NCBI GenBank assembly: GCA_002726235.1
Contig: PBSN01000027.1
Location: 1-10,068, forward strand
Reading direction: 5' to 3'
DNA length: 10,068 nucleotides
Source of the DNA: Nitrospiraceae bacterium
Lineage (GTDB): Bacteria > Nitrospirota > Nitrospiria > Nitrospirales > UBA2166
Shown here in pieces: positions 1 to 10,068 of the stretch; the stretch's first letter is position 1; every line of letters starts with the position of its first letter. The notes beneath the pieces are model-generated. The model had not been told where the DNA came from, ran no database searches, and was given only the letters and a program-made list of their open reading frames with translations. The position numbers were made by a program, and so were the translations under genes.

Positions 1-735
1 GCTCACCGGGGTGGGCGCAACCATCGCTGCCGGCAACCAACTGTGAAAGGGCATAATCGCAGCTTTGGCTAACCCCGCGATAAACAAAACGTAAATGATC
101 GTAAGCAGGATGGGCGCATCGACACCTGCGAAAACTCCACCTCGTTGGAACTCCAAGGTTCCTGTCAGGGTGTAGGTAAGAACGACTGCAGCGAGGAAGA
201 AGCTTTTCGACGCTCCGACCAGGTAGATGAGATACATCTTCCCGCCTTTCCAGGCTTCCGCGGTCTGCTTGTGCATGACCAGAGGATAGGTGGAGAGGCT
301 GAGAATTTCGTAGAACAAAAAGAGCGTAAAGAGATTCGAGGCAAACGCAACTCCTATTGTCGAGGAAAGCGCAATAGCGAAACAGGCATAAAATCTCGTC
401 TGTGCATGCTCATTGAGACCGCGCATGTAGCCGATCGAATAGATAGTGGCAAGTATCCATAAAAATGACGCGGTGGTGGCAAAGAGTAGTCCCAACGCAT
501 CCGCACGAAAACTGATACTGATCCCGGGAAGCAGTGTTACCAGCGTAAATTCAATAACTCCGCCGGCCAACACCGCAGGTGCCATCGACAGAACAATTAG
601 AAACTTAATGATGCCGGCACCGATAGAGAACGATTCTCGAAGATTAGGGCTATGCCGAGCGTATACAATAAGCAACGCTGCGATAGCAGAAACTGTGAGG
701 GCAAGAACCGGTTTTATGGAGACAATAGATTCCAT
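1..735 (-). CDS. Proton-pumping antiporter-like complex I membrane subunit (NuoM/MrpD type), 5' part
   Basis: First 245 codons of a polytopic membrane protein; the rest lies beyond the left edge. It belongs to the NuoL/M/N-MrpA/D family of proton- or cation-translocating subunits in the complex I membrane arm and Mrp antiporters. Visible family marks are the FRADALGLLF stretch (about residues 76-85), SIGYM (100-104), the Glu of FYEILSLSTYPL (E143, matching the pump-helix Glu of NuoM), and the Lys of GLAKAAIMPFHSWLP (K224, matching the central Lys, then HSWLP at 231-235). Hydrophobic segments fill most of the rest. The start ATG at 735 has an AGAGG ribosome site 9 nt upstream (745-749). The gene follows nuoK after 26 nt, where nuoL would be expected. 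The N-terminal half reads more like MrpD/NuoM than NuoL, so no symbol is given. Family assignment is strong; exact subunit identity is uncertain. Confidence 0.88.
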   Translation of the reverse strand, partial: MESIVSIKPVLALTVSAIAALLIVYARHSPNLRESFSIGAGIIKFLIVLSMAPAVLAGGVIEFTLVTLLPGISISFRADALGLLFATTASFLWILATIYSIGYMRGLNEHAQTRFYACFAIALSSTIGVAFASNLFTLFLFYEILSLSTYPLVMHKQTAEAWKGGKMYLIYLVGASKSFFLAAVVLTYTLTGTLEFQRGGVFAGVDAPILLTIIYVLFIAGLAKAAIMPFHSWLPAAMVAPTPVS

Positions 736-761: not shown

Positions 762-1064
762 CTACCATTTCAACAAGTTCAATTGATCAACGTTCGTCGC
801 GATCTTGCGGCGGAAGACGACGATAATGATGGCTAGTCCGATGGCCGCTTCTCCCGCAGCAATGGCAATGACGAAGATTGCCGCTATTTGTCCATCCAAG
901 GCATCGAAGTAGGAGGCGAACGCGACGAGATTAATATTTGCGGCATTCAACATAATCTCGATGGACATGAAGATGATGATAAAGTTTCGTCGAATGAGAA
1001 CACCGACGAGTCCAATTACAAACAGGATTGTGGCCACTGCCACGTAGTAGGATAAAGGGATCAT
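762..1064 (-). CDS. nuoK: NADH-quinone oxidoreductase subunit K
   Basis: Small membrane subunit of complex I and a homologue of MrpC, 100 residues, the usual family length. Three hydrophobic helices lie at about residues 5-24, 29-50 and 60-85. The two buried glutamates needed for proton translocation in the family are both present: E36 in the SIEIMLNAANINLV motif and E72 in AIAAGEAAIGLAI. The ATG at 1064 overlaps the nuoJ stop in an ATGA arrangement (1061-1064), so the two are likely translationally coupled. No separate strong ribosome site is seen. The gene is followed 26 nt later by the antiporter-like subunit. Nothing is missing or broken. Confidence 0.97.
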   Translation of the reverse strand: MIPLSYYVAVATILFVIGLVGVLIRRNFIIIFMSIEIMLNAANINLVAFASYFDALDGQIAAIFVIAIAAGEAAIGLAIIIVVFRRKIATNVDQLNLLKW

Positions 1065-1591
1065 GGTTTGTCAGAAGAATCGTATTGCCGGGCAATCGGA
1101 GTTTTGGCCAGGACGATAGCTCCGATAATCGCTCCAAGTAGAAATACCGCAATGATTTCAAATTGAAGCAGAAAATCGTTAAATATTGTAATTCCGACTG
1201 CTTTCGTGTGACCGACGAAACCAATCACTTCAGGGGTCGCGTTTCCGCTGAGGCTTGCAAAGGGACTGCTCAAGAGCATCAGTAAAAAGACTCCTCCAAC
1301 TCCGGCTGTGACAAATGCGATCACCGCAGTGCGTTGATGAAATACCCGCTCTTCTGTTTTAAGATTGAGCAGCATGAGTACAAAGAGATAGAGCACAAGG
1401 ATGGCTCCGGCATAGACAATGATCTGGACCATCGCAAGAAACTCTGAGTTCAACAGAATGAAGAATCCCGCAACGTGGAGAAGAAGGGTAAGTAGTGCTA
1501 GTCCGCAGTGCACTGGATTTCTGAGTGCAACGGTCAATATCCCCGAAGCGATACTTATCAAAGCAAGGTAGGCAAAGAAGAATGTGGTCAT
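1061..1591 (-). CDS. nuoJ: NADH-quinone oxidoreductase subunit J
   Basis: Membrane subunit of complex I and a homologue of the MrpA C-terminal part, 176 residues, normal for the family. Five hydrophobic helices are seen at about residues 5-23, 28-47, 53-76, 90-109 and 141-163. The third holds the conserved VQIIVYAGAILVLYLFVLMLLN stretch (55-76), where the family has the pi-bulge helix linked to coupling. The RNPVH turn (24-28) after helix 1 and E50 just before helix 3 are also typical. It lies 13 nt after nuoI and overlaps nuoK by 4 nt, the standard I-J-K order. The ribosome site is weak, so coupling to nuoI translation is likely. Confidence 0.96.
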   Translation of the reverse strand: MTTFFFAYLALISIASGILTVALRNPVHCGLALLTLLLHVAGFFILLNSEFLAMVQIIVYAGAILVLYLFVLMLLNLKTEERVFHQRTAVIAFVTAGVGGVFLLMLLSSPFASLSGNATPEVIGFVGHTKAVGITIFNDFLLQFEIIAVFLLGAIIGAIVLAKTPIARQYDSSDKP

Positions 1592-1604: not shown

Positions 1605-2387
1605 TTAGGCCTTCGGTTCTGGTGAAGTAGACTCTAAACTTGGTGCGGGCGTGACAACTGCAGTTTTTTCTGCCGCGCTGGGCGAGCCTGTGTCAGGCGT
1701 TTTGGCGATGGCTACTGGCGCTTCCGACTTGGGTACAGTGTCTACGTCAATAGGCTCGTCTTCACTCGGAGGAGTTAAAGTTTGATATGGCGACTGCATC
1801 TCGACGGTGGGAGATGGGAAGCGATAGCGATATCGTTCCCACATTTCGTCGTCGACCTCTTGGTTGTGGACAAAGAGATACTTTTTGGAATCCTCAAGAA
1901 AACGCTCCCCGATCGCGTAGAGTTTCTTTTTGTCAAAGATGAGGGCGCGTTTGTCTGTCGTTGAATATTCGTATTCCTTTGTCATCGCAAGTGCATTGAC
2001 AGGGCAGGCTTCAACGCAATAGCCGCAAAACACACACTTTGTAATATCAATATAGAATTCCTTCGCATGGCGAAGCAATGGGTTTGGTGCATCAGGCCCG
2101 GCGGGCTCACTCACGACTTTTATGCAGTGTGATGGACAGGCCGCTTCACACAAATCACACCCGACGCACCGTTCTTCGCCTATTTTCCCTTCACCTTTAT
2201 CGTATCGCAGTAAACCAAGGGCGCCACGATGGGCATCAGGAATAATTCGTTTCTCACGCGGGTATTGAAAAGTCACCTCTCTCATAAACATGTGCTTGAA
2301 GGGTACTTTCATCGCAGTCCAGATTTCTCGAAACAAAACTGCGTCAAAAAACTTCTTTATGGGTCCTTCGCGTGCGGATTTTTGCAT
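1605..2387 (-). CDS. nuoI: NADH-quinone oxidoreductase subunit I (8Fe ferredoxin-like, long C-terminal tail)
   Basis: Peripheral subunit holding clusters N6a and N6b, which pass electrons from NuoG to N2 in NuoB. Both 4Fe-4S motifs are intact: C74/C77/C80/C84 (CVGCDLCEAACP) and C118/C121/C124/C128 (CVFCGYCVEACP). An amphipathic N-terminal stretch (about 1-45) fits the membrane-docking region of the family. The protein is 260 residues, against about 180 for E. coli NuoI. The excess is a C-terminal tail from about residue 195, rich in Pro, Ala, Thr, Ser and Glu and likely disordered. It starts 17 nt after the nuoG stop, so there is no room for nuoH, which usually lies between nuoG and nuoI. The ribosome site is weak. 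Confidence 0.97.
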   Translation of the reverse strand: MQKSAREGPIKKFFDAVLFREIWTAMKVPFKHMFMREVTFQYPREKRIIPDAHRGALGLLRYDKGEGKIGEERCVGCDLCEAACPSHCIKVVSEPAGPDAPNPLLRHAKEFYIDITKCVFCGYCVEACPVNALAMTKEYEYSTTDKRALIFDKKKLYAIGERFLEDSKKYLFVHNQEVDDEMWERYRYRFPSPTVEMQSPYQTLTPPSEDEPIDVDTVPKSEAPVAIAKTPDTGSPSAAEKTAVVTPAPSLESTSPEPKA

Positions 2388-2404: not shown

Positions 2405-5209
2405 TTATTTTTCGGGTATCTCAGGTTTCGTCGTGTCCCCTTTGGGAGCATGTGCGGTGCTTGGGAGCCCATGTTTTTCTAACGTGACTGGGCCGGATTT
2501 GAACGCGGGAACGCCAGTCACCGCATCTGTCGTGCAGGCGATTAAATCCTTGAGTGAAGGATTGGAAAAATGTTCTGGGAAGAAGGTTAGGCCTGTGGGC
2601 AATGAGTCATCGACTCGAAAGGACATTTCAACACATCCAGTCGGCGAACTTATTTTTACGCTGTCGGCTTCACCTAATCCCAGCGATTCGATATCGTTCT
2701 GGCTGAGATGAAGACTGCCATGATTGGGATACATGGTCAGTAGAGCAGACGAGCGTGTTGAAAGTTTTCCTGAGTGGTAAATAATCTGACCCAGAGTGAG
2801 TATCGGTGATTTTCCTGTCGGTGTCCCTTGTGGATTAGCATATCGTGCACTGACGTTTGCAGCATATCCATTGCGCAGATAAGACAAGAGGTTGGGTGCA
2901 GGTTTCTCTTTCCGCTCTTTTGAAAAATAGCTAGGAATAAGTCTTTCAATGTCGTGAAGAACATCCTGCGGTCCTTCATATTCCATTGTGTGTCCCAAGC
3001 CATGCGCAATTACGGCGAAAACTTCCCAGTCTGGCCGTGAGTCTTCCTTGGGTTGGAGCGCTTCGTTGAGCGGCCCGATTCGTCCCCAGAAGTTCGTCAT
3101 CGACCCAACTTTCTCGGCATACGAGCATGCAGGAAAGACGACGTGCGCTAATTTCGCAGTCTCTGTCATGAACAGGTCTTGGCAAATCAGGAATTCAACG
3201 TTTTCCAAAGCTTCCCGTACTTTTGACGAAGCTGGCAATGTTGCAAGCGGGTTTTCCCCTACGATATACAACGCTTTAATCTGACCGTTGCGGCATCGAT
3301 CAAGAATTTCCATCAGTGATGCGCCGGAATTTTCGGGTGGGAGCTCACAACCCCACGCCACGCCACATCGCGTGCGTGCTTCAGCATCACTGAATGCAAC
3401 TTGCCCAGGAAGTAGTTCTGGTGCGACACCCATGTCGACCGCACCTTGCTCATTCGCTTCTTCCGGAAGACAGGTGATGCCAGAACCTGGTTTTAGTAGC
3501 GCGCCGGTTAGCCAGGCCAGATCGATAAGATTGAGCATGGCGGTATAACCACCTGCACGCATGCTAACGCCCTCTGCACACAAAATTACCGTTCGCGGTG
3601 ATTGCGTGAGGATTGTTGCGACATCAACGATCGTATCAACATCGATATTCGTTTTCACTGCTATCGCTTCCAAGGACATTGTCTCTAGTGCGGCTTTAAT
3701 TGCCTTCAGCGCCTCGGGGTACGGAGCCGTGGCATCTTTGTCAAAAAGGTCACGTTCGATTAGCGCCTTGATCAAGCCAGTGACAAACCAATTCTCTGTT
3801 TCAGGGTGCAGTCGAAGGTGATGGACATTATCAAACTCCAACTTGGCAAGATGTGTTGTCCGTGGATTTGCAATAAAAACATTAGATTTGTAGACGCGGA
3901 TTGCCTCTTTGACGCGTAGCCCCGTAATCGGGTGTGTTTCCGTAATGTCCGAGCCGATGAGTAAAATTGCCTTTGCTTTGGTGATTTCCTCGAATGAATT
4001 CATCGAGCAGCTTAACCCAGTTGCGTCGCGCATAGCACGAACGAAATTCATATGCCCGTAGCGGGCACTACTGTCGATGTTATTGGTGCCCAGCGCACCT
4101 CGCATGAGACGCTGAAACACATAGAGGTCTTCATTTGTGCAGCGTGCGGTGATCAGACCGGCAATTGCTTGTCCTCCGTGCTTGGACTTGATGTCCGCAA
4201 GTTTCCTGACGGTTTCATCGATTGCATTTATCCATGGGGTTGGGGCATGGATGTCTGCTTTTTGTGAAGAATGGCGAACAAGCGGTTGCTTCAATCGCGC
4301 TGTGTGATCGACATAGTGAAACCCGAAGCGTCCACGCACGCAAATTCCGCCATGCCCTTGCGCTGTCGTTTCGCGATCCCCCCACTTATTCTTCCACGAA
4401 AGCGCGGATCGCACACGAACTACTTTCTCGTCTTTGGTGTCAAGGAAAGTTTCACAGCCATCCGCACAATATGTACATGTTGTTGTGGTTGTTTTCAGTT
4501 GCCATGGCTTATAGATGTATTTTGCAAATTTGTTAGTGATTGCACCAACTGGGCATACCGCTAAGCAATCTCCGCAAAACTCGCAATGCAATGGCACGTC
4601 GCCTTTGGCAACGACCTGCTGAGCCCCGTTTTTCTTGAGAAACTGGAGGGCTCCGGTTTTGAATTTGCCTTTCTCGTTCTTTGCCGGATTGATCATCTGA
4701 ACATCTTCACAGATGTTGATACACTCGCCACACACAATGCAGCGCTCCATATTAAAATCGAGCACGAGACTTCGTGTATCTTCGGGAATTACCTTTCGTT
4801 TGACATCAATCAGGTTTGTGATCTCGTGGCCAAATGCCATGTCTTGGAGTTCGCATCTTCCATCAGCATCGCATACGGGACAATCAAGGGGATGCGTCGA
4901 AAGGTGCTTAGAAACAGCTTTCTTGCGAGCCTCAAATAGATCAGGAGTCTCAGTGGTCACAACCATGTCAGCCTGCACTTTGGCGGTACAGGAACGAACT
5001 GGCGCCTTTTTCCCTTCGACTGTGACAAGACAAACCCCGCATGATCCAAACGGATCAAAGGTGTAGTGGTAACACATGGCTGCGATCCTTTTGCCCTGCT
5101 TTGAAATGACATCATAGAGCGAGATGCCTGGCTTGGCGTGTACGACCTCACCGTCGATCGTCAACTCGACAGGTTCGACTTCAACATCGGGGTTGGTTAC
5201 AGGTTTCAT
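2405..5209 (-). CDS. nuoG: NuoG-type complex I subunit with formate-dehydrogenase-like features
   Basis: 934-residue iron-sulfur protein of the complex I electron-input arm. In order: 2Fe-2S domain (C46, C57, C60, C74); His-Cys3 4Fe-4S site (H106, C110, C113, C119); two complete ferredoxin-type motifs (C157/C160/C163/C167 and C209/C212/C215/C219); a 4Fe-4S motif opening the pterin-oxidoreductase domain (C245, C248, C252, C290); a long molybdopterin-type domain with FDH-like EEANEQGAVDMG; and a dinucleotide-binding C-terminal domain (about 800-920). Canonical NuoG has one ferredoxin-like cluster where this has two, as in FdhA and HydA/HndD proteins. The metal-ligand Cys/Sec of formate dehydrogenases (ARV-C/U-H) is replaced: it reads ARYGH, with G385 before H386. 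Formate oxidation is therefore unlikely and a structural or electron-relay role is inferred. An in-frame stop (5246-5248) and lack of other start codons fix the ATG at 5209; no clear ribosome site precedes it. Confidence 0.9.
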   Translation of the reverse strand: MKPVTNPDVEVEPVELTIDGEVVHAKPGISLYDVISKQGKRIAAMCYHYTFDPFGSCGVCLVTVEGKKAPVRSCTAKVQADMVVTTETPDLFEARKKAVSKHLSTHPLDCPVCDADGRCELQDMAFGHEITNLIDVKRKVIPEDTRSLVLDFNMERCIVCGECINICEDVQMINPAKNEKGKFKTGALQFLKKNGAQQVVAKGDVPLHCEFCGDCLAVCPVGAITNKFAKYIYKPWQLKTTTTTCTYCADGCETFLDTKDEKVVRVRSALSWKNKWGDRETTAQGHGGICVRGRFGFHYVDHTARLKQPLVRHSSQKADIHAPTPWINAIDETVRKLADIKSKHGGQAIAGLITARCTNEDLYVFQRLMRGALGTNNIDSSARYGHMNFVRAMRDATGLSCSMNSFEEITKAKAILLIGSDITETHPITGLRVKEAIRVYKSNVFIANPRTTHLAKLEFDNVHHLRLHPETENWFVTGLIKALIERDLFDKDATAPYPEALKAIKAALETMSLEAIAVKTNIDVDTIVDVATILTQSPRTVILCAEGVSMRAGGYTAMLNLIDLAWLTGALLKPGSGITCLPEEANEQGAVDMGVAPELLPGQVAFSDAEARTRCGVAWGCELPPENSGASLMEILDRCRNGQIKALYIVGENPLATLPASSKVREALENVEFLICQDLFMTETAKLAHVVFPACSYAEKVGSMTNFWGRIGPLNEALQPKEDSRPDWEVFAVIAHGLGHTMEYEGPQDVLHDIERLIPSYFSKERKEKPAPNLLSYLRNGYAANVSARYANPQGTPTGKSPILTLGQIIYHSGKLSTRSSALLTMYPNHGSLHLSQNDIESLGLGEADSVKISSPTGCVEMSFRVDDSLPTGLTFFPEHFSNPSLKDLIACTTDAVTGVPAFKSGPVTLEKHGLPSTAHAPKGDTTKPEIPEK

Positions 5210-5393: not shown

Positions 5394-6674
5394 TTAACGG
5401 TCACACTCTCCCATCACGACATCATAGGTACCAAAGATCGTGACGGAATCTGAAATCATATATCCTTTACACATGTGGTCAAATGCTCCCATGTGGATGA
5501 ACGAAGGCGCCCGAATCTTCATGCGATAAGGCCGCGAGTCTCCATCGCTCACGATGTAAAATCCGAGTTCGCCCTTGTGGGCTTCGGTGCCACAGTAGAT
5601 TTCTCCTTTCGGCGCCTTGAAGCCTTCAGAAAAGAGTTTGAACTGCTGAATCATGTTCTCAAGGCTGGTAAGCACACGGTCTTTTGTCGGGAGAGTCACG
5701 CTCGGTCGTTTGGCCATGATCTGATTGCGAGGATCGTCGGCTGGAAGTTGGTCAAGCTCTTTGAGATGATCAAGGCACTGCCTGATGATTTTGACACTCT
5801 CTCTCATCTCTTCCATACGAATCCAGTATCGATCGTATGTGTCGCCATTTGTGCCGACAGGAACCTTCCACTCGACTTTGTCATAGGCCGCATAGGGTTC
5901 ATACTTGCGCAGGTCATAATCGACCCCCGATCCTCGGAGTGGCGGACCACTCATCCCAAAGCTAATGGCGTCTTCAGCTGAAATCACTGCCACGCCTTTC
6001 GTCCTTGCAAGCCAGATCCGATTTTTTTCGAGAAAGATCATGTACTCATCGATTTTTGGAGGAAAGTAATCGAGATATTCGCGCATCGTCTCGACAAGAG
6101 ATGGAGAGAGATCTCGCTCGACACCTCCGATGCGATACCAACTCGTGGTTAGACGAGCACCACACAGTCGTTCAAACCAATCGAGCAGAATTTCGCGATC
6201 ACGAAAAGTGTAGAAGAAAACCGTCATTGCACCAAGGTCCAAAGCCTGGGTTCCAAGCCAGAACTGGTGTCCGATGATTCTCTGGATTTCCGCGACGATG
6301 GTTCGAAGGTATTCCGCACGTTCTGGAACTTGCAGATTAATCAGCTTTTCGACCGCTCGAACATACGCAAAGTTGTTGTACATGGCACAGACATAGTCTA
6401 GCCGGTCGGTATGTGGGATAAACTGATGATATGTGCCATGCTCGGCGAGCTTTTCAACCCCGCGATGCAAATATCCCATTACAGGAGTAGCCTTGATGAT
6501 GCGCTCGCCTTCCAGATCCAAGACGACCTTGAGTACCCCGTGAGTGGCAGGGTGTTGCGGTCCCATGTTGAGCATCAGTTCTTCAGTGCGAAGAACGGGA
6601 AGGGCAGGATCTTTAGGACGATTTGGGTCGACCCGATATACAGTGTCTCGCTGGTCTTGAAGGCCTTGGGACAT
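5394..6674 (-). CDS. nuoD: NADH-quinone oxidoreductase subunit D (49 kDa)
   Basis: Core Q-module subunit, related to the large subunit of NiFe hydrogenases, which forms the quinone pocket with NuoB. It is 426 residues, a normal length for an unfused NuoD. The quinone-binding residues are present: H41 and H45 in GPQHPATHG and Y94 in HTDRLDY, the His45-Tyr94 spacing matching the His38-Tyr87 pair of Thermus Nqo4. Other family marks are MGYLHRG (66-72), SWYRIGG, GPPLRGSG and a C-terminus ending GECDR, near the usual GEVDR. It is separated from nuoC by a gene on the opposite strand, so it must have its own promoter or be reached by transcription across that gene. An AAGGAG sits 13 nt before the ATG, farther than usual; no in-frame start codon lies in between. 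Confidence 0.98.
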   Translation of the reverse strand: MSQGLQDQRDTVYRVDPNRPKDPALPVLRTEELMLNMGPQHPATHGVLKVVLDLEGERIIKATPVMGYLHRGVEKLAEHGTYHQFIPHTDRLDYVCAMYNNFAYVRAVEKLINLQVPERAEYLRTIVAEIQRIIGHQFWLGTQALDLGAMTVFFYTFRDREILLDWFERLCGARLTTSWYRIGGVERDLSPSLVETMREYLDYFPPKIDEYMIFLEKNRIWLARTKGVAVISAEDAISFGMSGPPLRGSGVDYDLRKYEPYAAYDKVEWKVPVGTNGDTYDRYWIRMEEMRESVKIIRQCLDHLKELDQLPADDPRNQIMAKRPSVTLPTKDRVLTSLENMIQQFKLFSEGFKAPKGEIYCGTEAHKGELGFYIVSDGDSRPYRMKIRAPSFIHMGAFDHMCKGYMISDSVTIFGTYDVVMGECDR

Positions 6675-6888
6675 AGATGAATTTGGGCTCCTTAATTGGC
6701 TCGCAAAACCCCCATGGTATACAGGGTTGTCTACTCTCGCAAGAGGGGAAAAGTCCTATTGTTGATAGTGGGCCAAAAGTGCTACATAGGTTACTGCTAT
6801 AAACTGTTGCCACATCAGCATATTTCCCCTTTTCGAGTTGCATCCTCTCTGATAAGCTGTTCGGCACTGCTGATCATTGTGGAGCATT
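6675..6888. promoter_or_regulatory. Divergent intergenic region between nuoD and the radical SAM gene
   Basis: These 214 bp separate two divergently read genes and should hold a promoter for each. For the plus-strand gene, an extended -10-like box TGCTATAAA (6795-6803) is the best candidate; no good -35 is seen, and it would give a leader of roughly 80 nt. A GGAG at 6881-6884 is the ribosome site for the ATG at 6889. For nuoD, only a weak TTGCGA / TATACC pair with a 15-nt spacer is visible on the minus strand, about 25 bp upstream of its AAGGAG. A short inverted repeat CTCT-CGCA-AGAG lies at 6734-6745. No known operator is recognised. Confidence 0.4.
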
Positions 6889-8529
6889 ATGCGTCGCCTA
6901 AAAATCACTATTCTTGATCTCCTGACCAAAGGTCCAACCACAAGTCTTTACGCACGGGTCATGAATCAGAATCTCGCCAGTATTATGCCTCAGGTGGTTG
7001 CAGTGTGGTGTGAGCAGATGGGTCACGATGTTCAATTCATTTGTTACACTGGTTTAGAAGATCTCAACAGCGAGCTACAGCGTGATGCAGATCTCTTATT
7101 TATCGCGGCATTTACCCGTTCGGCCGAACTCTCCTACGCCATTAGCAGTTCTTTCAGACAGCAAGGAGCTGTGACTGTGTTGGGCGGACCTCATGCACGG
7201 TGCTACCCGCAGGACGCGGCACGTTACTTCGACTATGTTGTGGGTTTTACTGACAAAGCGTTGATTGGAGATATCATCCGAGATTGTGAACCACATCGAC
7301 CCATCGGGCAACAGCTCAGTGTAGCTCAACAACCGCGTGAACTGCCTGGGGTCAAGGAACGGTGGAAATTTATTGAGCCTACCATCAGTAAAGCACCTAC
7401 ATCCTTCAAAATTATTCCCATGATCGGAAGTATGGGCTGTCCGTACACCTGCGGTTTTTGTATCGATGCGAACATCGATTTTCAGCAATTGGGCTTTGAT
7501 CAAATTCGTGAGGATCTTCGGTTTCTGCTTACGAAAATAGATAGGCCCTGCGTTGCGTGGCATGATCCCAACTTCGGCGTAAGCTTCAACCAGTACATGG
7601 GAGTCATCGAGGACACTATTGCACCTGATTCGATTGATTTTATTGCTGAAAGCACCTTGTCAATCCTGAGCGAATCGCACCTCAGACGGATGCAGAGAAA
7701 CGGATTCAAAGCCGTACTTCCGGGTATTGAATCCTGGTACGACCACGCGGACAAATCAAGCTCTGGCCGACGGACCGGCCTTGAAAAGGTCAGGCACATC
7801 GCTGACCATATCAATTTAGTCCACCAATATATCCCCTACACCCAGTCAAACTTTGTTCTGGGGTTGGACAGCGATGAGGGGCCAGAACCGTTTGAACTGA
7901 CCAAAGAGTTTCTCAAGCGGGTGCCCGGAACTTTCCCAGCATTCTCCTTGCTGTCGGCATTTGGCCAAGCTTCGCCATTCAATCTCGATCTGCAACGAGA
8001 GGGCAGGGTCCTACCGTTCCCATTCTACTTTCTCGACAACAACAAGGCTATGAATGTTCGTCCAAAGAACTATACGTGGCCGGAGTTCTACGATCATCTC
8101 GTTGATCTTACTCGTTACGCGTTCTCTTGGCCACGGATTTCTCGCAGGGTGGTTACAACCAAAGGTTGGGTTCCGAAGTGGTTGAATGTGGTTCGTAGTG
8201 TATCGTCCGAGGGATTTGGCCGTCTCAAGTATCACACAACCATTCGCAGGAAACTTGATTCGGATATTGCTTTTCGTCGTTACTTGGAGGGGGAAAGCAC
8301 CGCACTTCCGGAGTTTTATAAAGAGAAGATTAAAAAGAAACTGGGCCTATATTGGGAAATGCTACCAGATGGGGCCTTGTCTCACGACCACTTGGCATAT
8401 CTCAAGACACACGGTCGCATGGCAGATAATCTCGCTGAACATTCAACCCCAGCAGACACTGATGACGTAACTTCCCGGGGCAATAAAGTGTCAGTGAAAC
8501 TGTGCGTCCCCCACACGCAGACCACCTAA
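6889..8529 (+). CDS. Radical SAM protein with a B12-binding-like N-terminal domain, function unknown
   Basis: 546 residues. The CxxxCxxC motif that binds the SAM-cleaving 4Fe-4S cluster is intact at C184, C188 and C191 (GCPYTCGFC). Before it is a Rossmann-like region resembling the cobalamin-binding domain of class B radical SAM enzymes, with GGPHA near residues 99-103 and FDYVVG near 115-120. The Asp-x-His-x-x-Gly motif of His-on cobalamin proteins is not seen, and the usual acidic GEGE after FDYVV reads GFTD. Downstream, HDPNFGV (225-231) and GIESW match the family core. The C-terminal 200 residues are basic and aromatic-rich with no domain I recognise. The ATG at 6889 is preferred because GGAG (6881-6884) precedes it; an in-frame TTG at 6877 would add four residues. 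It sits inside the nuo cluster on the opposite strand. Substrate is unknown; methylation, ring formation or lipid/cofactor modification are all possible. Confidence 0.88.
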   Translation: MRRLKITILDLLTKGPTTSLYARVMNQNLASIMPQVVAVWCEQMGHDVQFICYTGLEDLNSELQRDADLLFIAAFTRSAELSYAISSSFRQQGAVTVLGGPHARCYPQDAARYFDYVVGFTDKALIGDIIRDCEPHRPIGQQLSVAQQPRELPGVKERWKFIEPTISKAPTSFKIIPMIGSMGCPYTCGFCIDANIDFQQLGFDQIREDLRFLLTKIDRPCVAWHDPNFGVSFNQYMGVIEDTIAPDSIDFIAESTLSILSESHLRRMQRNGFKAVLPGIESWYDHADKSSSGRRTGLEKVRHIADHINLVHQYIPYTQSNFVLGLDSDEGPEPFELTKEFLKRVPGTFPAFSLLSAFGQASPFNLDLQREGRVLPFPFYFLDNNKAMNVRPKNYTWPEFYDHLVDLTRYAFSWPRISRRVVTTKGWVPKWLNVVRSVSSEGFGRLKYHTTIRRKLDSDIAFRRYLEGESTALPEFYKEKIKKKLGLYWEMLPDGALSHDHLAYLKTHGRMADNLAEHSTPADTDDVTSRGNKVSVKLCVPHTQTT

Positions 8530-8564: not shown

Positions 8565-8592
8565 AGGTTATGGCAAAACCCGGATTTTTTTT
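8565..8592 (+). terminator. Possible weak terminator after the radical SAM gene
   Basis: A short GGTT...AACC stem with a 7-nt loop is followed by eight T (8585-8592) about 55 nt after the radical SAM stop. The stem is only four or five base pairs, so this is a weak candidate. The T run reaches into the last codon of the convergent nuoC. Confidence 0.25.
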
Positions 8593-9079
8593 ACGGCTTT
8601 TCACCGAGAAACTCGAACGTATCGCGCCAGCCTTTACCTTGTAGCGGGAAGTCTTTGCGTAGAGGGTACCCTTCAGGGTAGTCGTCAGGAAGGAGGATTC
8701 GGCGGAGATCAGGGTGATTGTCGAAACGGATACCCATCATGTCAAAGACTTCTCTCTCCATAAATTCGGCCCCTTTCCAGATATCCACCATGGAATCGAG
8801 ACGCGGGTCGGATTCTGGAATTCGAGTTTTTACTCGTATGCGGTGACGCTTTGGAATGGAATAGACCTCGTAGACGACTTCAAATCTCTCAGGATCGTTT
8901 GGCCAGTCCACGGAACTTACGTGAACCATGTAATCGCAGGCCATCTCGGGATCGTCGCGGAGAAATTGGCACACCTTGTGGATCGATTCACGTTTGACGC
9001 TGGCGGTCACTTCTCCTAGGTATTCCATCATAACGGCTTCCGGAAATCGTTCTTTTATGCGGGCCGAAAGTGGATGCAT
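8591..9079 (-). CDS. nuoC: NADH-quinone oxidoreductase subunit C (30 kDa)
   Basis: Peripheral Q-module subunit that packs against NuoD and NuoI, 162 residues and not fused to NuoD (in E. coli the two are one protein). The family signature is clear at about residues 101-133 (WKGAEFMEREVFDMMGI, then DNHPDLRRILLPDDYPEGYPLRKD to residue 143). The ATG at 9079 overlaps the nuoB stop by one base (TAATG), with GGAAGGG just upstream as ribosome site, so translation is likely coupled to nuoB. It is the last gene of the right-hand nuo block. Its 3' end faces the end of the radical SAM gene across 61 bp. No terminator for nuoC is evident, so transcripts may run antisense into that gene. Confidence 0.97.
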   Translation of the reverse strand: MHPLSARIKERFPEAVMMEYLGEVTASVKRESIHKVCQFLRDDPEMACDYMVHVSSVDWPNDPERFEVVYEVYSIPKRHRIRVKTRIPESDPRLDSMVDIWKGAEFMEREVFDMMGIRFDNHPDLRRILLPDDYPEGYPLRKDFPLQGKGWRDTFEFLGEKP

Positions 9080-9600
9080 TACCCTTCCATGCTGACTTCT
9101 TTGGGTTGTTTAGTGAACACTCGGCGACGCATGATTTCGTCCTGAAGTTTGAGTATGCCATCGAAGAGTGCTTCTGGCGTTGGTGGACATCCAGGCACAT
9201 ACATGTCAACCGGAACAATGCGATCGACACCTTGGACCACAGGATAACTATCGTAAATATTTCCTGAGGTCGCGCACGAGCCCATCGAAATCACATACTT
9301 TGGTTCGGGCATCTGGTCGTATACCTTTCGAACCACAGGGGCCATGCGACGACAGACAGTTCCGGCGACGATCATCAGGTCTGATTGACGAGGAGTCCCG
9401 CGAAAGATACCGGCGCCAAATCGATCCATGTCATATCGGGACGATACCGCTGCCATCATCTCAATGGCACAACAGGCCAGCCCAAAGGTCATCGGCCATA
9501 GGGATCCTTTTCGAGCCCAATTTACTGCCCGTTCTAGGGTCAGAGTGATGACTCCAAGATCTCCAGATTTATCCTGTGGTCCGATATGAATTAATCCCAT
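9079..9600 (-). CDS. nuoB: NADH-quinone oxidoreductase subunit B (PSST; cluster N2)
   Basis: Q-module subunit binding cluster N2, the last Fe-S centre before quinone, 173 residues. The four ligands are all present with canonical spacing: the adjacent pair C43/C44 ([11 protein letters not shown]), C109 ([10 protein letters not shown]) and C138 ([11 protein letters not shown]). The intervening [11 protein letters not shown] and [10 protein letters not shown] stretches are typical. It overlaps nuoA by 10 nt (9591-9600), with AAGGGG about 7 nt before its ATG, and touches nuoC by one base. Nothing is degraded. Confidence 0.98.
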
Positions 9601-9992
9601 TCCAATGCCCCTTTCATCCAGGCATAGAAGTAGGCGACGAAAAACAGACCGATAAAAATCATCATTTCCATCATGCCAATCATCCCGATTTCATTGAATG
9701 CTACGGCCCACGGATATAAGAAAATCACTTCGACATCGAAGATGACAAATAACATTGCGATGATGTAATACCGAACGGGAAATGGCATTCGAGCATCTGA
9801 AATTGGTTCGCTGCCACATTCATAGGTGGTAAGTTTTTCCGCTTCGGGGTACTTGGGCTGTGCGACGTGGCTGACCAGCAGGGTGCCAGCACCAAACACA
9901 AACGCCGCCCCCAAAAATAGGAGGATTGGCAAATACTCGGTTAAGTAAGCGATAAGTGAAGGAGAAAGCTCCATGGCTAGACAGCATAGCAT
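9591..9992 (-). CDS. nuoA: NADH-quinone oxidoreductase subunit A
   Basis: Small membrane subunit of complex I next to the quinone site, 133 residues from the ATG at 9992 or 127 from the in-frame ATG at 9974. Three hydrophobic helices are seen at about 19-42, 73-97 and 102-125. The conserved YECGSEP loop (58-64, with the exposed Cys of the family) and [20 protein letters not shown] segment are present. AAAGG lies 3 nt before the 9992 ATG, which is close; the 9974 ATG has no ribosome site, but [10 protein letters not shown] looks like a more natural NuoA beginning. The start is therefore uncertain by six residues. It is the first gene of the cluster in this window and overlaps nuoB by 10 nt. 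Confidence 0.96.
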
Positions 9993-10054: not shown

Positions 10055-10068
10055 CCCCCCCCCCCCCC
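10055..10068. repeat. Homopolymer run of 14 C at the sequence end
   Basis: The last 14 bases are all C (G on the nuoA coding strand), about 60 bp upstream of nuoA. A run this long at a sequence end most likely marks where assembly or sequencing failed, though a genuine G tract upstream of nuoA cannot be excluded. Confidence 0.9.

Follow-up and report, generated by a model that had tools for sequence, protein, structure and literature searches.

The DNA analyzed here, a window of 10,068 nucleotides that makes up contig C27 of a Nitrospiraceae bacterium assembly, carries two blocks of complex I genes, nuoA-B-C and nuoD-G-I-J-K, with an oppositely oriented radical-SAM gene between them and an antiporter-like gene after the second:

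9591..9992, minus strand: nuoA (PF00507)
9079..9600, minus strand: nuoB (PF01058), N2 cysteines retained in the alignment
8591..9079, minus strand: nuoC (PF00329), separate from nuoD
6877..8529, plus strand: B12-binding/radical-SAM gene between nuoC and nuoD, on the opposite strand
5394..6674, minus strand: nuoD (PF00346; TIGR01962 above cut-off), quinone-site His and Tyr retained in the alignment
2405..5209, minus strand: nuoG, 934 amino acids plus stop, assigned to a clade-3 2M-type complex I from Pfam domains, 80 orthologues and a tree
1605..2387, minus strand: nuoI (PF12838; TIGR01971 above cut-off), eight ferredoxin cysteines and a long C-terminal tail in the alignment
1061..1591, minus strand: nuoJ (PF00499)
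762..1064, minus strand: nuoK (PF00420; NF004320 above cut-off)
1..735, minus strand: MrpD1-type first antiporter-like subunit (PF00361 and Mrp subunit D models), truncated by the contig end

The order A-B-C-D-G-I-J-K is constant over the related loci that cover the region, and no nuoE, nuoF or nuoH was found in the window operon or beside the related loci compared. A radical-SAM gene likewise lies between nuoC and nuoD at L004, L005 and L006; none was detected there in the remaining Nitrospira loci compared. The C-terminal tail of NuoI (1605..1900, minus strand) is long and rich in Pro, Glu and Thr, whereas E. coli NuoI has no such tail.

Possession of a [2Fe-2S] and a His-Cys3 domain, in a protein encoded beside quinone-module genes, identifies the product of the 2405..5209 gene as NuoG (75-kDa subunit). 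Its Pfam domains are Fer2_4, NADH-G_4Fe-4S_3, Fer4_7, Molybdop_Fe4S4, Molybdopterin and Molydop_binding. The cluster-binding part comprises the following, all on the minus strand:

4946..5176, minus strand: [2Fe-2S] domain for N1b, residues 12-88 (C46, C57, C60, C74; PF13510), invariant in 80 orthologues
4817..4927, minus strand: His-Cys3 domain for N5, residues 95-131 (H106, C110, C113, C119; PF10588), invariant in 80 orthologues
4709..4741, minus strand: CxxCxxCxxxC motif 1, residues 157-167, invariant in 80 orthologues
4553..4585, minus strand: CxxCxxCxxxC motif 2 (extra cluster), residues 209-219, with C212 in 79 of 80 orthologues and the other cysteines in all 80
4340..4477, minus strand: N7-type [4Fe-4S] site, residues 245-290 (C245, C248, C252, C290; PF04879), invariant in 80 orthologues

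A preliminary description of this DNA, made from its letters alone, had noted two full CxxCxxCxxxC motifs and predicted five Fe-S clusters. Both motifs are where it placed them, and ligands for all five predicted clusters are present, with N4 assigned residues 157, 160, 163 and 219 and the extra cluster residues 209, 212, 215 and 167. Across the 80 Nitrospirales-type orthologues, every cluster ligand but one is invariant (19 of 20), and C212, the exception, differs in a single orthologue; given such conservation, the pattern of ligands and site residues cannot be put down to chance. The description was also right that E. coli and Thermus NuoG lack the second motif: E. coli NuoG is without four of the eight ferredoxin cysteines, keeping only the last Cys of motif 2 in the alignment, and the Thermus and M. 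smegmatis chains likewise lack motif 2 except for its last Cys.

The double ferredoxin motif is by no means peculiar to this operon, as it also occurs in the canonical NuoG of the same genome, in NuoGs of distant Nitrospirota and in the NuoG of the rhizobial green complex I. Chain A of PDB 7q5y, the NuoG of Aquifex aeolicus, has both full motifs and is shorter than the window NuoG, at 632 amino acids. The equivalent cluster of the Rhodobacter formate dehydrogenase (RcFDH) is A2, and the RcFDH paper refers to older work that had predicted such a cluster from sequence for complex I of C. jejuni, H. pylori and A. aeolicus (PMC7171172), and one additional [4Fe-4S] cluster was predicted for Nitrospina NuoG2 (PMC3578206). 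The extra cluster is thus a known trait, widespread among NuoGs of one type; the alternative state, represented by E. coli, Thermus and mitochondria, is to lack it. Because the NuoG trees are not rooted with respect to gain or loss, they do not give the ancestral state.

The pterin-domain part of the protein resembles formate dehydrogenases (FDHs) and is marked by the following features:

3005..4297, minus strand: molybdopterin-oxidoreductase-like domain, residues 305-735 (PF00384), predicted fold matching FDHs and nitrate reductases
2495..2779, minus strand: C-terminal molybdopterin dinucleotide-binding-like domain, residues 811-905 (PF01568)
4334..4336, minus strand: R292, aligned with the Lys that the FDHs share (Lys in 17 of 17 FDHs, Arg in 78 of 80 2M orthologues)
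4052..4057, minus strand: G385-H386, where FDHs have Cys/Sec-His (Cys or Sec in 17 of 17 FDHs, Gly in 80 of 80 2M orthologues)
3464..3466, minus strand: P582, aligned with the catalytic Arg, third of the active-site residues of FDHs (Arg in 16 of 17 FDHs)

Besides E. coli FDH-H and plasmid-borne FdhF/FdsA types, the 17 FDH-type sequences in the alignment included eight from other Nitrospirota that are apparently selenoenzymes, judging by an in-frame TGA at the active site. The FDH sequences were labeled by annotation, or by active-site residue and neighborhood, and a tree built without the site columns separated the labeled groups with one change. This alignment bears out what had been described for the pterin domain: the QGAVDMG stretch lies at residues 588-594, Gly385 occupies the position of the Cys/Sec metal ligand next to a retained His386, and Arg292 stands on the Lys column. 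Whether residue 385 is Gly in all close homologues had been raised as a check, and it is Gly in every one of the 80 Nitrospirales orthologues; H386 is retained in 79. To these changes we add the column of residue 582, where Arg is never found in the 15 2M rows or the 18 other complex I rows aligned. The Rhodobacter FDH has Cys386, His387 and Arg587 as its active-site trio (PMC7171172). Since two of the trio and the Lys are gone from the window NuoG, formate catalysis is predicted to have been lost, as the description proposed, and judging by these residues is very unlikely. Other NuoGs with the double motif have Gly, Ser or Asn in the active-site column. The complex I NuoGs at L140, L141 and L164 have Gly in column 385, yet keep the FDH-type Lys in column 292.

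Does the dead site mean that a formate dehydrogenase was captured? The preliminary description saw in the protein an FdhA-type subunit recruited as an electron-input arm. That complex I separately captured such a subunit, which then lost catalysis, would fit the observation that the closest PDB entries in sequence and in fold are FDHs and that the FDH alpha model TIGR01591 gives the protein a higher score (434 bits; curated cut-off 666) than the NuoG model TIGR01973 does (325 bits; cut-off 470), both scores being below cut-off. The TIGR01973 cut-off is a database threshold and does not define the subunit: the model misses this divergent NuoG type, whose membership rests on tree and operon. In a tree made without the metal-site columns, a single branch with SH-aLRT 100 splits FDHs from complex I NuoGs, and the tree with all columns gives the same split (bootstrap/aLRT 100/100); the tree without the metal-site columns omits E. 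coli NuoG, which has a very long branch. The window protein nests among the complex I NuoGs, within a 2M clade supported at 100/100. A dead site and a double motif are shared by the canonical NuoG and by NuoGs encoded beside nuoE/F and nuoH, so any loss of FDH function predates the window NuoG, and because the double-cluster set also occurs in canonical, rhizobial green and Aquifex NuoGs, no fresh recruitment of FdhA is needed. The similarity to FDHs fits a common ancestor and slow divergence of this NuoG type, and we regard separate capture as improbable. The recruitment part of the earlier proposal is not supported, although an input arm is plausible. The window NuoG belongs to a conserved variant that is for the most part already known, rather than being a fresh capture of a formate dehydrogenase; FDH-like NuoGs with a dead site are commonplace among Nitrospirota, and labeling them as formate dehydrogenases is to be avoided.

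To which complex does it belong? In Nitrospira, the clade-3 2M complex I (CI_1 in N. moscoviensis) is encoded without nuoE, nuoF or nuoH and with an enlarged nuoG, and it has been proposed to reduce ferredoxin (PMC6606698; clade definitions from Chadwick et al. 2018, as cited there). The window shares its gene set, its enlarged NuoG and its separate NuoC and NuoD; NuoG is 55-60% identical to Nitrospira orthologues. The first pumping subunits differ, being MrpD1/MrpD2-like here and NuoL in Nitrospira. From its description, NUO-2 of Nitrospina gracilis likewise has a NuoG2 with N1b, N4, N5, N7 and one extra [4Fe-4S] cluster and a proposed role in ferredoxin reduction; it differs in having NuoE2, NuoF2 and NuoH (PMC3578206). 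FdsA of the NAD-dependent FDH of Rhodobacter capsulatus (PDB 6tg9) has five Fe-S clusters and a pterin domain of the same fold, but keeps Cys386, His387 and Arg587 and binds bis-MGD, where the window NuoG has Gly, His and Pro. The canonical complex I of the same genome is encoded on another contig (C4), with its NuoG adjoining fused nuoEF and nuoH. We consider it likely that the window gene encodes the NuoG of a Nitrospira-type clade-3 2M complex I, with a noncatalytic pterin remnant and an outer end that exchanges electrons with ferredoxin.

How might electrons move through such a complex? Having lost the Cys/Sec that binds the metal as well as the Lys and the catalytic Arg, the pterin-fold domain would be a structural remnant unable to oxidize formate. 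In RcFDH, A2 couples A1 (equivalent to N7) to the chain (PMC7171172); in ordinary complex I, N7 is too distant from the chain (PMC7613608). The extra [4Fe-4S] cluster at the A2 position may link N7 to the N4-N5/N1b chain. With no NuoE or NuoF in the operon, NuoG would be the outer end of the electron wire, as published proposals have it, and electrons could pass among quinone, N2, N6a/b, the NuoG clusters and ferredoxin; the N2 cysteines of NuoB and the quinone-site His and Tyr of NuoD are intact in the alignments. It is also possible that a NuoF encoded elsewhere docks on NuoG. An electron-input arm is plausible, but published proposals favor reverse electron transport, with ferredoxin as the acceptor (PMC6606698; PMC3578206). 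Following them, the proton motive force would mainly drive electrons from quinol to ferredoxin, which once reduced would serve those carboxylases of the reductive TCA cycle that depend on it. Two POR_N-family proteins in the genome are consistent with a demand for reduced ferredoxin. We found no biochemical test of ferredoxin reduction in the literature. The extra cluster is also present in NuoGs with adjoining NuoEF and is therefore not specific to ferredoxin use. In the predicted structure, pLDDT is below 50 at residues 131-301, so that only the pterin fold is informative and cluster distances cannot be taken from it. The clade-3 2M complex is the published candidate for the source of low-potential ferredoxin in nitrifiers that fix CO2 through the reductive TCA cycle, and the features of the sequence that matter for this role are the additional cluster, an N7 that it would rewire, the absence of a NuoH gene and the partner that docks on the complex.

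Since the genome encodes a solo NuoF, the complex could instead still be an NADH:quinone oxidoreductase that borrows the canonical NuoEF or uses the solo NuoF. This gene (L100 4982-7044, on contig C25 of the window genome, G000) is followed by genes for a [2Fe-2S] ferredoxin and an IscA-like protein, an arrangement reported for N. moscoviensis, and an interaction of solo NuoF with the complex has been suggested (PMC6606698). Its CNADE and (I/L)RGE motifs are changed, however, to CNAGE and YINND, so that flavin binding may be altered, and NuoE/F was not found in the operon at any locus compared; we think the NADH route rather unlikely. That the pterin-like domain binds its cofactor without a protein metal ligand and performs another reaction might be suggested by the conservation of much of the domain between FDHs and NuoGs and by the near-universal H386. 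Yet ligand, Lys and Arg are all replaced, and canonical NuoGs considered noncatalytic have retained the domain too; of the readings weighed, we rate this one the most improbable.

The clade-3 2M complex is consistently without a NuoH of its own. The window genome has two NuoDs and one NuoH, which lies in the canonical cluster; the single-contig genomes G081, G252, G110, G179 and G299 have the same two and one, and matches to the NuoD family outnumber those to the NuoH family in 76 of 77 Nitrospirales genomes. These family counts include some hydrogenase-type relatives, and unambiguous evidence comes only from the simple two-and-one genomes. The one genome that departs from this, G105, has NuoD of the 2M type only and retains a NuoH, followed by NuoI and NuoJ and preceded directly by a relative of the methyltransferase that precedes canonical nuoA. 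In this region (L224 11216-13343) the canonical A-B-CD-EF-G genes appear to have been deleted, leaving NuoH-I-J. This arrangement fits a 2M complex that borrows the canonical-cluster NuoH, but it is only a lead, coming from a single draft genome.

The membrane arm also departs from that of Nitrospira, whose loci have a NuoL of ~665 amino acids after nuoK where the window has the MrpD1-like gene. The window subunit is 87% identical to its UBA2166 homologue and about 26-28% identical to Nitrospira NuoL. In a relative, G297, one contig ends with nuoG-I-J-K-MrpD1, and another (C67) starts inside an MrpD2-like gene and continues with Nitrospira-type M, M′ and N with the distal-helix insertion. Two NuoM subunits and a longer distal helix also characterize the clade-3 2M type; the window stops within the first antiporter gene, and the window genome has M-M′-N with the helix insertion on contig C17 (L102), not contiguous with the window. 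A separate green-type set, MrpD1-MrpD2-M-N, lies elsewhere; relatives carry two MrpD1/MrpD2 sets. On a UBA2166 contig (L004), K-MrpD1-MrpD2 lies near green-type copies, unlike the arrangement in G297. Joined across contig ends, these pieces indicate that the arm in the genus is probably MrpD1-MrpD2-M-M′-N. Such an arm was described for Complex_I_3 of Candidatus Manganitrophaceae and not found there in other phylum members analyzed (PMC9040806). By that description the probable arm is the same, with a helix insertion in the 2M-set MrpD2; here, in contrast, it occurs in a Nitrospirales genus and is pieced together across contig ends. This is probably a second occurrence of the Manganitrophaceae-type arm.

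A bolder proposal is that the extra cluster turns N7 and the dead pterin domain into a working second electron port, such as a ferredoxin dock, in a complex that lacks NuoE/F, shares the single NuoH of another operon and, in this genus, has five antiporter-like pumps. Taken as a whole we think this unlikely.

Several smaller observations concern the assembly. L212 and L213, together with contigs C3 (L101) and C17 (L102), bear on the MrpD1-first arm. Positions 1..277 of the window overlap positions 1..277 of L101 at the contig ends, with 85% identity and identical ends. We considered and rejected the idea that C27 runs straight into C3, as the overlap is only 85% identical and relatives have two separate MrpD1/MrpD2 sets. 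The 277-bp overlap reflects either a pair of MrpD1 paralogues that have stretches of sequence in common or an assembly drawn from more than one strain; identity to UBA2166 is 95-97% for the C3 genes and 85% for NuoG on C27. A run of C at 10055..10068, at the contig end, is probably an assembly artifact, and at L076 (1676-4438) the NuoG orthologue is broken into two open frames by a frameshift or an assembly error.
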